Shown: positions 2,833-27,362 of the stretch, in pieces
Numbering within the stretch: position 1 is the first letter of the stretch
How the letters are laid out: the number at the start of each line of letters is the position of its first letter
From: Gemmata massiliana
Lineage (GTDB): Bacteria; Planctomycetota; Planctomycetia; Gemmatales; Gemmataceae
DNA: 64,000 bases
Direction: 5' to 3'
Assembly (NCBI GenBank): GCA_000531095.1
Contig: HG799469.1
Span: 316,570-380,569 of the forward strand
Notes under the pieces: generated by a model
Database searches by the model: none
The model's input: only the letters and a program-made list of their open reading frames with translations
Told to the model about the DNA's origin: nothing
Made by a program: the position numbers and the translations under genes

Positions 2833-3261
2833 ATGAAGCGATTCGTGACCGCGGCCGTTATGGTCGCAGCGCTCGGCCTTTCGGCCGGCGCGCAACCCTC
2901 GCCGCCCCAAAAACCTACAACCCCGCCTCCGCCGGCCCCACCTGTTGGGGTCTATCCGACCCTCGTGGCGCCGGCGATCGGTTCGCCCGCGCCGAACGTG
3001 TTCGTCCCCCCGGGCACACCGCCCGGACCGGCGATTCCCTTCTACAAGAGCGGCGGCTTGGCCGTCGGCGTGTACGGCCTGTACCCCTACGACTCCGGCC
3101 ACTGGCTGCTCGGGGGTACCGACGGAACAACGCGCCAGAGCGGTGCGTTCACGATGGTCTTCCCCGAAGCACCAGCGACCGAAGCGGCCGCACCGGTCGG
3201 CCCGGTTACGCGCACCTCGATCTTCCACGGGAAAGCGCGCACGGGATTGTTCTGTCGGTGA
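2833..3261 (+). CDS. secreted proline-rich hypothetical protein
   Basis: The 142-residue product starts MKRFVTAAVMVAALGLSAGA, a clear Sec signal peptide with likely cleavage after AGA. The mature part opens with a proline-rich tract (PPQKPTTPPPPAPP) followed by a glycine/tyrosine-rich region. The ATG at 2833 follows a GAGGACG purine tract; a longer reading from 2710 is arginine-rich and looks non-coding. It ends at an intrinsic terminator (3282-3318). Exported proline-rich proteins like this are common in planctomycetes; function unknown. Confidence 0.6.
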   Translation: MKRFVTAAVMVAALGLSAGAQPSPPQKPTTPPPPAPPVGVYPTLVAPAIGSPAPNVFVPPGTPPGPAIPFYKSGGLAVGVYGLYPYDSGHWLLGGTDGTTRQSGAFTMVFPEAPATEAAAPVGPVTRTSIFHGKARTGLFCR

Positions 3262-3281: not shown

Positions 3282-3318
3282 ACAACCGCCGGGGTTCGCT
3301 CCGGCGGTTGTCGTTTTT
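3282..3318 (+). terminator. intrinsic terminator
   Basis: ACAACCGCCGG at 3282-3292 pairs perfectly with CCGGCGGTTGT at 3301-3311 across an 8-base loop, followed by CGTTTTT. It ends the small secreted-protein gene and sits between convergent genes. Confidence 0.85.
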
Positions 3319-3366
3319 AGTGCTGCGCCGAACGGAACCGAACGACACCACCCAGCCCAATTGTCT

Positions 3367-3439
3367 TCTGTAGCCGGCCTCTGCGAGGCCGGGTGTCTAG
3401 TGTTTGTGGCTGCCCGGCCTCGCAGAGGCCGGCTACAGA
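3367..3439. repeat. 73-bp palindromic element (type 2)
   Basis: A perfect 27-bp inverted repeat (3367-3393 and 3413-3439) with a 19-base centre. Each arm contains its own hairpin (CCGGCCTC-TGC-GAGGCCGG). It lies between convergent genes, just downstream of the peptidase stop codon. Its layout is the same as the elements at 664-790 and 27295-27362, though the sequence differs. Confidence 0.8.
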
Positions 3440-3457
3440 AAGCGACACAATTCGCGG

Positions 3458-5566
3458 TCACTTGCGGAGTACCAGGTTCTCGATGAAGAACTCCATCATT
3501 CGCGGTTGCGAGATCCCCGAGTGCCCCGCGTCCGGGCCGACCTGAAGGTCGAAACTCTTGCCCGCCCGTTGAAGCGCGCGGATCAGTTGCAGCGAGTTCG
3601 ACGGGTGAACGTTGTTGTCCGCGGTGCCGTAGTAGATCATCAACCGCCCCTTCAGTTTCGCCGCGTGGACCACCGCGCTACCCGCGTCGTACCCCGCCTT
3701 GTTGTCCTGCGGGAGCCCCATGTACCGCTCCGTGTAGATCGAGTCGTACAGCCGGTAGTCGGTTACCGGAGACGACGCGCACGCGGCCTGGAACACGTCC
3801 GGGTGCCGCAACAGACACATGATCGAGGCGTACCCACCGTAAGAGCCGCCGTAAATACCCACGCGGGTCTTATCGAGGTACGGGCGCTCCCACAACGCTT
3901 TCACTCCAGCCGCCTGATCGTCGATTTCGACCACGCCGAGTTTGCCGTAGATCGCGTCGAGGAACTTCTTCCCTCGGCCGCCCGCGCTGCGCGAGTCGAA
4001 CGACGCGACCAGGAACCCGTACTCGGCCAGCGCTGACGGCACGGAGTGCGTCTCCCGGGCGCCGTTCGTACCCGGCCCCGCGTACACCGATACGAGCAGC
4101 GGGTACTTCTTCGCGGGGTCAAAGTTCGACGGAAAGTGCAACAACCCGTACAGGTCCGTGGTACCGTCCCCGGCCTTAAATTTTAGCAGTTCCGGCGCCC
4201 GGATCCCGAGCTTCTCGAACTTCGTGGTGTCGCTCTTGGCCAGGTCCGTGACCACCTTCCCGTCCGCAGAGACGAGCCGGCTCGCAGGGGGAGCGGCGTG
4301 CGTCTGGTACACGTCGATGAAGTGTTTGCCGTCCGGGGCGAAATCGATGGCGTGGTTGAACGCGGGATCGGTCAACTGCGTGTCGCCCGTGCCGTTGAGC
4401 CCCACGCGGTGAAGTTGGAGCTTCATCGGGTTGTCGCCGCTGCGGGCGGTGTAATAGAGCACGCCCGCCTCTTCATCAATGCGGACGACGTTCGCCACCT
4501 CGAACGGGTGGTTCGTGAGTGTGGTGACGAGCTTTCCGCCGAGGTCGTAGAGGTAGAGGTTGCGCCACCCGGTGCGTTCCGAGGTCCAGATGAACCGGCG
4601 CCCGTCTTTGAGGAACCGCATCGGCGGCAGATTCTCGACCCAGCTCGCCGGCCACTCTTCGCGAACCACGACCCGACACTTCCCGCTCGCCGGGTCCGCG
4701 GCGACGAACTCCAGCACGTTCTGGCGCCGGTTCGTCCGCTCGAAGAGCACCTCTTTCCCGTCCGTCGACCAGGACACGCGGTACGCATAGTGCCCGACCA
4801 CGTCGTTGGCGAACGGCTTACCGTCGCGCACGTCGAGCTTCGTCGTCTTCTTGGTTGCAAGGTCGTAAACGAGTACCTCGACGACCGGGTTCGCCGCGCC
4901 CGGTTTCGGGTACGGCTCGGCGTCGAGCTTCGTCATGAGCGCCGTCTGCTCGAGCGCCAAATAGTAATCGGGGACGTTCGTTTCGTCGAACCGGTAAAAC
5001 GCGATCTTCTTGCTGTCCGGGGACCACCACATAGCCGAGCGCTGGAACAGCTCCTCGCCGTACACCCAGCTCGCCGATCCGTTCTTGATGCGGGACTTCT
5101 CGCTCCCGTCGGTCGTCACCGCCATTTCGATCAGCCCCTTGGCGTCCGACAACCAGAGGTTCCGGTCGCGGTAGAACGCCTTGAACTGACCGTCCGGTGA
5201 CGTGGTCGAAGTGGCCTGTCGGCCGCGCGGTGCCCCGCCCTGTGGCGCGCCCCCAAACGGCCCGCGCCCGCCCGGCCCCTTCGGCCCGTCCTTCGCCTCC
5301 CCAACCGAAGCAGTCTTCCCGGTCGCGATGTCGAACCGAAGCAACTTACCGTCGTGCCGGTACTCGAATGCCTTCCCCTCGTCCTTCCAGGTGACCGCGA
5401 CCGCGCCGGATTTCACCGCGCCCGGAAGCTCCTTACTCATCTTCTGGTAGTTCTCGTACCCCGGCATCGTCACGAGCCGGTCCTGGGCCGCGAGAGAGCT
5501 ACACGCGAGAGAAACAGAAATGGCCCCGAATAAAGCGAACGGAATCATCCGGCCCGGCATCTTCAC
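3458..5566 (-). CDS. secreted S9 family peptidase (DPP-IV-like)
   Basis: This 702-residue protein has a signal peptide (residues 1-27, ending SLAAQ), an N-terminal DPP-IV-type beta-propeller (about 80-430) and a C-terminal prolyl-oligopeptidase alpha/beta-hydrolase domain. The catalytic triad is visible: Ser near 575 in GGSYGGY, Asp near 650 in GTADNN, His near 682 in DAGHSG. It should cleave dipeptides from the N-terminus of peptides, typically after proline or alanine, outside the cytoplasm. The GTG at 5566 has GGGGGA five bases upstream; the ATG at 5560 is an alternative start. A glycine/proline-rich insert (GPKGPGGRGPFGGAPQGGAP) after residue 95 is unusual for the family. It is divergent from the rhodanese gene. 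Confidence 0.93.
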   Translation of the reverse strand: MKMPGRMIPFALFGAISVSLACSSLAAQDRLVTMPGYENYQKMSKELPGAVKSGAVAVTWKDEGKAFEYRHDGKLLRFDIATGKTASVGEAKDGPKGPGGRGPFGGAPQGGAPRGRQATSTTSPDGQFKAFYRDRNLWLSDAKGLIEMAVTTDGSEKSRIKNGSASWVYGEELFQRSAMWWSPDSKKIAFYRFDETNVPDYYLALEQTALMTKLDAEPYPKPGAANPVVEVLVYDLATKKTTKLDVRDGKPFANDVVGHYAYRVSWSTDGKEVLFERTNRRQNVLEFVAADPASGKCRVVVREEWPASWVENLPPMRFLKDGRRFIWTSERTGWRNLYLYDLGGKLVTTLTNHPFEVANVVRIDEEAGVLYYTARSGDNPMKLQLHRVGLNGTGDTQLTDPAFNHAIDFAPDGKHFIDVYQTHAAPPASRLVSADGKVVTDLAKSDTTKFEKLGIRAPELLKFKAGDGTTDLYGLLHFPSNFDPAKKYPLLVSVYAGPGTNGARETHSVPSALAEYGFLVASFDSRSAGGRGKKFLDAIYGKLGVVEIDDQAAGVKALWERPYLDKTRVGIYGGSYGGYASIMCLLRHPDVFQAACASSPVTDYRLYDSIYTERYMGLPQDNKAGYDAGSAVVHAAKLKGRLMIYYGTADNNVHPSNSLQLIRALQRAGKSFDLQVGPDAGHSGISQPRMMEFFIENLVLRK

Positions 5567-19380: not shown

Positions 19381-19684
19381 TACTCACGGCTTGCCTCCAT
19401 CCTCGGCGAACGGCCGGTGTGAGTCGGCCGGTGGAACGTGCTGTGGCTGATTGTTGTACGTGTAAGGCGCGGTGAACCCCGCCCGCAAGGGCGGTGGGTT
19501 GTTCGATCCCACCGGGCTTGGTGCGCACCTTGTGCTTCTACCCGCCGCTCTTACGGGCGGGGTTCGCCAACGCCACCCGCCGCCCTTGCGGGCGGGGTTC
19601 GCCACGCCTCAACGCCCTCGCACCGGCCGGCTTACACCGGCCGTTCGCCCGAACTCGGGGCGAATCGTGAGTGCCGGCGCCTCC
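19381..19684. other. repeat-bearing intergenic region
   Basis: These 304 bases separate fusion 2 and the ceramidase-like gene (convergent). They contain three copies of the type 3 element unit (19472-19604) and no supportable gene. Confidence 0.6.
19472..19604. repeat. cluster of three type 3 palindromic units
   Basis: One unit reads forwards (GTGAACCCCGCCCGCAAGGG, from 19472) and two read as its complement (ending GGCGGGGTTCGCC at about 19541-19568 and 19576-19604). Each unit folds on itself through CGCCC-GCAA-GGGCG or a close variant. The same unit forms a clean two-arm palindrome at 27295-27362. Confidence 0.75.
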
Positions 19685-27294: not shown

Positions 27295-27362
27295 GTGAAC
27301 CCCGCCCGCAAGGGCGGCGTCAATGACGAGGCACACCCACCGCCCTTGCGGGCGGGGTTCAC
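27295..27362. repeat. 68-bp palindromic element (type 3)
   Basis: Perfect 23-bp arms at 27295-27317 and 27340-27362 flank a 22-base centre. Each arm folds on its own (CGCCC-GCAA-GGGCG). It lies between convergent genes, and its right arm supplies the stop codon of the glycosyltransferase (complement of 27359-27361). Confidence 0.82.

Follow-up and report, generated by a model that had tools for sequence, protein, structure and literature searches.

A GTAG-REP doublet of Gemmata massiliana as the probable core of an IS630/ISAva6-type miniature element

Described REP systems and the doublet of the window

Pneumococcal RUP, with IS630-Spn1, is an IS630-derived MITE, and classical IS630 elements duplicate TA. 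REPINs are described as elements that a RAYT in their own genome duplicates (in passages of PMC8049555), and GTAG REPs are reported from the PVC superphylum and R. baltica in parts of PMC3733652, PMC3116915, PMC6006769, PMC8266576 and PMC8049555. Sections of PMC3733652 describe REP-bearing species without REPtrons, as well as the P. putida 607 and P. fluorescens 4255 double inverted repeats, where a REP is joined to an unrelated stem-loop. In the open-licence literature we found no report of REPINs in Gemmata, nor of a REPIN within a MITE with target duplications.

The window, a stretch of 64,000 nucleotides from G. massiliana, carries an inverted repeat with arms at 3366-3393 and 3413-3440, each of 28 nt, 100% complementary and separated by a 19-nt gap; the perfect 27-bp arms of the original prediction (3367-3439) are therefore real. 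Each arm consists of a TTCT-GTAG foot followed by the hairpin CCGGCCTC-TGC-GAGGCCGG and, as had been claimed, folds alone, with an 8-bp stem and a 3-nt loop (as DNA, -10 and -9.6 kcal/mol; z -3.4 and -3.6). Together, the arms form one long hairpin (29 centroid pairs, z -13.3), whose stability was equaled by none of 200 shuffles. The left REP (3366-3393) lies on the forward strand, the spacer (3394-3412) carries the family loop motif reversed (GTTTGTGGCT), and the right REP (3413-3440, reverse strand) is an inverted copy with its GTAG foot outward, the whole being a head-to-head doublet, or REPIN. Furthermore, the 23-mer GTAGCCGGCCTCTGCGAGGCCGG occurs twice in the window at up to three mismatches, against 0 expected from 100 shuffles.

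Placement between convergent genes, also part of the original prediction, holds as far as open reading frames show. On one side, a 183-aa forward ORF ends at 3261; it is unscored as coding by the codon-usage caller, whose next forward gene lies 695 bp away. On the other side, a reverse-strand gene (5566-3458), like those of dipeptidyl-peptidase IV and S9 prolyl oligopeptidases, leaves 18 bp between its end and the arm. A separate intrinsic terminator stands at 3282-3311 on the forward strand, with a 13-pair stem followed by CGTTTTT. In the same window, another doublet with this layout (TAGCCCGGGGTTTCAACCCCGGG) was seen at 652-708 and 737-793, with imperfect 57-nt arms; its hairpins are also nested inside a type-2 element elsewhere (L317:1030-1130).

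The genome search proposed with the original prediction, where the family is called type 2, was carried out in the genome of the window (G000; 9.27 Mb, 22 contigs, 96.5% complete) and returned 24 matches with up to three mismatches over 14 sites, the reversed control giving 0. Head-to-head doublets, with starts 44-45 bp apart, make up 10 of the 14 sites, and 13 of the 14 are outside predicted ORFs; according to our own codon-usage ORF caller, seven sites are convergent, four tandem, two divergent and one within a predicted ORF. Of the 95 genomes of the bacterial family, 17 have the exact motif, including 14 from the same genus, with exact REP copies numbering 81 in G022, 43 in the sister genome G009 and 40 in G016. 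Among viral contigs there were no exact matches, and a phage link was dropped. A 5' GTAG-footed palindrome of 20-40 bp, dispersed and mainly extragenic copies, and a predominance of inverted doublets are all found here, and the window feature is a GTAG-REP doublet, very probably an ordinary REPIN core.

RAYT clades and hairpin families

Y1-type genes were present in 19 of the 22 genomes searched. P0001 (G016, L056:1799-2269), which has type-2 REPs on both flanks, is a REP-associated tyrosine transposase (REP_Tyr_transpos, NF047646; 107.5 bits, cut-off 80), its best solved relative being TnpArep 4er8 (E 4.4e-9). Its DHIH, WQ and YVLNNP segments resemble the [ND]HxH, WQ and Y...NP signatures given for such subclasses in the available text of PMC6006769. 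The P0001 clade has five members, 57-100% identical (G016, G075, G046 and, twice, G008), of which only that of G016 belongs to this genus. All five have inverted GTAG/GTGG hairpins of the type-2 family in both flanks (GTAGCCGGCCTCTG[CT]GAGGCCGG, GTAGCTGGCCTCTGTGAGGCCGG, GTAGCCGGTCGCTTCGAGGCCGG, GTGGCTGGCCTCTTTGAGGCCGG), which indicates that the core derives from a REP/RAYT system. None of the next five RAYTs (40-43% identity) has a type-2 hairpin, all being flanked by GGGAGGGCGAGGCTCCTGCCGAGCC or near variants.

In this context, the statement of the original prediction that type 1 and type 2 have a common layout and unrelated sequences was confirmed, as REP-RAYT pairing would lead one to expect. 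Type-1 REPs (GGTGAACCCCGCCCGCAAGGGCGG) number 136 copies in G000 at up to one mismatch (control 0), and exact copies flank a RAYT-like gene of the same genome (L027; G000:C11:21726-22016), which falls short of the NF047646 cut-off (36 bits against 80) and exceeds that of PF01797. The hairpin shape is the recognition format common to one enzyme superfamily, and the sequence is the family-specific part. Consequently, same-layout repeats of different sequence in one genome may be families of one enzyme superfamily, not convergent inventions. Type-1 REPs were also seen within the window, at 19471-19609 and 27295-27362.

Among named genomes, a crude finder detected a shared hairpin in both flanks at eight of the 36 RAYT loci scanned (of 73 in all), and 28 were without one; one of the eight is P0001 and one a weak 13-nt match, and the RAYTs of the positives besides P0001 are 42-54% identical, with hairpins of other sequence. 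In a crude-motif scan of 51 RAYT loci, many were without a recognised ORF or a shared flank repeat. Another RAYT group (L119-L123) has flanks of CACAGGCTTCCAGCCTGTG-type hairpins, and related GGTGGCACAGGCC repeats adjoin several type-2 sites of G000. A further family of the same layout was seen at L025:1440-2040 (G000:C2), where a Y1 transposase gene stands between exact 71-nt inverted hairpin repeats.

No RAYT of the P0001 clade was found in G009, G022 or G000. G009 gave 0 matches at E 0.001 to PF01797, NF047646 and P0001; the best P0001 match of G022 was 30% identical, with no P0001-clade RAYT; and G000 has neither a P0001-like gene nor, among its three Y1_Tnp genes (best P0001 match E 3.2e-4, 27% identity), a cognate RAYT. 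G022 and G009, with 81 and 43 exact copies, outnumber the RAYT-bearing G016, with 40, though they lack a P0001-clade RAYT.

The unit of about 122 bp and its candidate mover

The feature is longer than originally given. At the site of the window doublet, the sister genome G009 (a single contig, 98% complete) lacks exactly 125 bp (3333-3457), with 95% identity around, and this segment is best read as a single insertion, namely a 122-bp unit and a 3-bp duplication. By alignment to the empty site, the putative MITE-like mobile unit spans 3336-3457, with diverged outer inverted repeats enclosing the REPIN; its length of 122 bp recurs in other copies. At another site (L020), G009 is likewise without 125 bp, the empty site keeping a single TCA and the filled site having TCA on both sides. 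Neither the outer inverted repeats nor the target duplications were part of the original account, and both are present in the family.

Twelve G000 sites were queried in G009, the comparison leaving out L023 and L024: the element was cleanly absent at two (that of the window doublet and L020), raggedly absent at two (L008, L014) and present at four (L002, L011, L018, L022), and four were not collinear or undecided (L001, L004, L006, and L012, which lay outside the alignment). Conversely, 14 sites of G009 were looked up in G000; nine aligned and five did not, and the element stood in none of the nine. Their net differences were 125, 125, 124, 113, 110, 93, 79, 72 and -22 bp, other sequence standing in the place of the element at the last; the cleanest, of 125, 125 and 124 bp, correspond to L258, L253 and L252, and ragged differences were seen at L008, L014, L241, L242, L244, L245 and L259. 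Type-2 copies are thus polymorphic between G000 and G009, both without a cognate RAYT.

A survey of flanks covered 67 doublets in eight genomes, after five loci without a recognisable doublet were dropped (L012, L022, L269, L289, L297); L251, orthologue of L011, was dropped before the duplication tests and the flank-identity analysis. In G000, G009 and G011, the consensus is TNA-TACCGAATCGTGCTGATGA..TTGTCTTCT-[REPIN]-AGAAGACAATCAAAACGAGACSGTA-TNA, about 122 bp, in which imperfect outer inverted repeats of 25-29 bp (TACCGAATCG.../...CGAGACSGTA) enclose the REPIN. Flank identity in these genomes was 0.43-0.47 at 4-16 nt and 0.31-0.32 at 16-29 nt, against a background of 0.25-0.28. The outer sequences of G022 and G010 are related to these but different.

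A duplication was counted where a 119-125-bp unit had equal TNA at either edge, the null being flanks re-paired among copies. In G000, G009 and G011, equal TNA was found in 14 of 36 copies, not all of them independent of one another (L014 and L290 being one site), versus 4.3 expected, and 0 of 4000 shuffles were as high. Among 16 triplet classes in these genomes (300 shuffles each), TNA stands out, TNT (6 vs 1.9) and, weakly, ANC (9 vs 5.1) being the others over the null. By a stricter criterion, four units had both ends and all were equal (p 0.25). In G022, the signal was weak and not significant (4 of 15, null 1.8, p 0.06), and in G010, G026, G016 and G017 there was no excess (2 of 15 vs 2.1). 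In RAYT-bearing G016, flanks are near background beyond 4 nt (TTCT/AGAA), duplications were 0 of 20 (null 0.3) and spacing is variable, with starts 44-46, 79-80 or more than 100 bp apart; the elements of G016 are ordinary REPINs.

In the window copy, the right-hand target triplet (3458-3460, reverse strand) is TCA, and TTA in G009, and it doubles as the stop codon of the dipeptidyl-peptidase-IV-like gene. Its left partner (3333-3335) is CGG, so the duplication is not intact; this copy is somewhat degraded, and the duplication is therefore claimed for the family, not for the window copy. Since TNA overlaps the stop triplets TAA and TGA, the element sits exactly at the stop codon of its neighbour, and insertion could put REP hairpins at gene ends with the gene unbroken. 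Such triplets could favour harmless insertion at gene ends.

Outer inverted repeats with 3-bp TNA duplications are the signature of a DDE transposon (MITE). HUH enzymes of the IS200/IS605 type are not known to make a target duplication, and a DDE enzyme is the mover that the direct 3-bp duplication suggests. At three places in G009 (L371-L373, the frame of L373 being broken), TNA and then TACCGAATCGTTTTGA adjoin the end of an IS630-like gene, a family call that rests on L371. The 64-aa piece of L371, where one end was read, gives a weak match to NCBIfam IS630 (18.6 bits, E 0.001, cut-off 100), is 41% identical to an ISAva6-family transposase of Trichormus and matched no Pfam family. By eye, the G009 end and the right repeat of the unit agree at 14 of 16 positions. 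Moreover, ISAva6 (IS630-like, plasmid A of Trichormus variabilis) starts TACTGAATAGGG, with the end motif TACTGAAT, and its copies on one plasmid have equal TNA in four of four (TGA, TAA, TTA, TAA). No complete helper was seen, nor, in G000, any IS630-like gene piece beside a matching end.

Of 11 places with the end motif and no type-2 REP that were read, three were these IS630-like ends, one was a further type-2 unit (L375), one was REP-less (L379) and six gave no convincing unit. The REP-less unit (G000:C3:647779) has ends of the type-2 kind, with TGA on both sides.

Other candidates for the helper were rejected. Among DDE_Tnp_1 genes, 30 of the 216 matches were inspected and no matching pair of ends was found. 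The ISL3-type IS of L312, whose transposase seemed to end at the TACCG end, shows its own ends in L317, nested in a type-2 element; likewise, the DDE_Tnp_1-like IS of L012 (21.3 bits, cut-off 23) lies within a REP loop and is bounded by ends of its own. The latter insertion (L012:514-1465), with broken frames, lies in the loop of the left type-2 REP with TGT on both sides, and in another left-REP loop (L310; G000:C15:19431-19745) an element of about 270 bp was seen with similar CAACGAATT ends and hairpins of its own.

Competing readings and likeness to known systems

Taken together, in G000 and its near relatives the window element is probably an IS630/ISAva6-type MITE carrying a REPIN core. 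The REPIN would form the core of a miniature transposon that is about 122 bp long and not autonomous, an IS630/ISAva6-type DDE transposase acting in trans would cut at the outer repeats, and insertion would occur at TNA, with the REPIN carried as cargo after loss of the cognate RAYT. A plain REPIN, spread by its own, since lost RAYT, whose conserved outer flanks travelled with it through chance or recombination, the excess of TNA being a by-product of their conservation, is an unlikely competitor: GTAG head-to-head doublets and RAYT association are textbook features (portions of PMC3116915 and PMC3733652), and the latter source, in part, describes REP-bearing species missing REPtrons. Against this, the re-pairing null retains flank conservation and still yields 4.3 versus 14, and at the cleanest empty sites the difference is 124-125 bp, as opposed to about 67 bp. 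Furthermore, G016 has the RAYT but neither outer repeats nor duplications, and target duplications are not known to be left by HUH enzymes of the IS200/IS605 type.

Ordinary terminators in many variants had been named as what could overturn the original prediction, and strong hairpins in a convergent intergenic region, with seven of the 14 G000 sites convergent, would suit a bidirectional terminator between convergent genes. This reading was rejected because the scan of the window site called only 3282-3311 (forward) and 3312-3281 (reverse), neither at the hairpins, and this terminator, which already serves the convergent pair flanking the REPIN, also stands in G009, a genome that lacks the REPIN at this site; near-identical dispersed copies, the four tandem and two divergent sites and the insertion polymorphism make such a reading highly improbable as well. 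Equally little credence is given to the proposal in the original prediction that selection acts on shape and not on sequence, that is, on a host-useful DNA or RNA structure whose sequence is free to vary. The layout is indeed common to different families, and host roles of REPs have been hypothesised (in sections of PMC3733652), but within the type-2 family 12 of the 24 copies are exact and 22 differ by at most one change, the hairpin families examined each track their own RAYT group, and presence or absence between sister genomes argues against a fixed local function.

Beyond the MITE reading itself, we tentatively suggest that the REPINs of the genus may have changed vehicle, from an HUH-type RAYT to cargo of an IS630/ISAva6-like MITE, with REPs growing in number without any RAYT. 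If true, continued movement of the family within a DDE-type MITE, in genomes free of RAYTs, would separate the spread of REPs from RAYT function; it would let the use of REPs to the host be tested in a natural setting and give a possible reason for REPs right behind stop codons.

The unit resembles RUP in being small and non-coding, in having inverted ends and, presumably, in being mobilised in trans by a DDE transposase of the IS630 type; unlike RUP and classical IS630, it has a 3-bp TNA duplication, as in ISAva6, and its core is a REPIN. With ISAva6 it shares the TACTGAAT... ends and the equal TNA triplets seen in all four plasmid copies, whereas ISAva6 is a 1.17-kb element with its own transposase. 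The P. putida 607 and P. fluorescens 4255 repeats likewise combine a REP with a second inverted repeat in many copies, but they flank tyrosine transposases, and the passages describing them in PMC3733652 do not mention target duplication. With the GTAG REP dimers, or REPINs, with RAYT (TnpAREP) treated by Bertels & Rainey (2011, PMC3116915) and Di Nocera et al. (2013, PMC3733652), this family shares the GTAG foot, the short GC-rich palindrome, the head-to-head doublet, a variable spacer, extragenic placement, several families per genome and, here in relatives, a family-specific RAYT flanked by the same REPs; unlike in those systems, G000 has no cognate RAYT, and the doublet stands inside a longer unit with outer repeats and TNA duplications.
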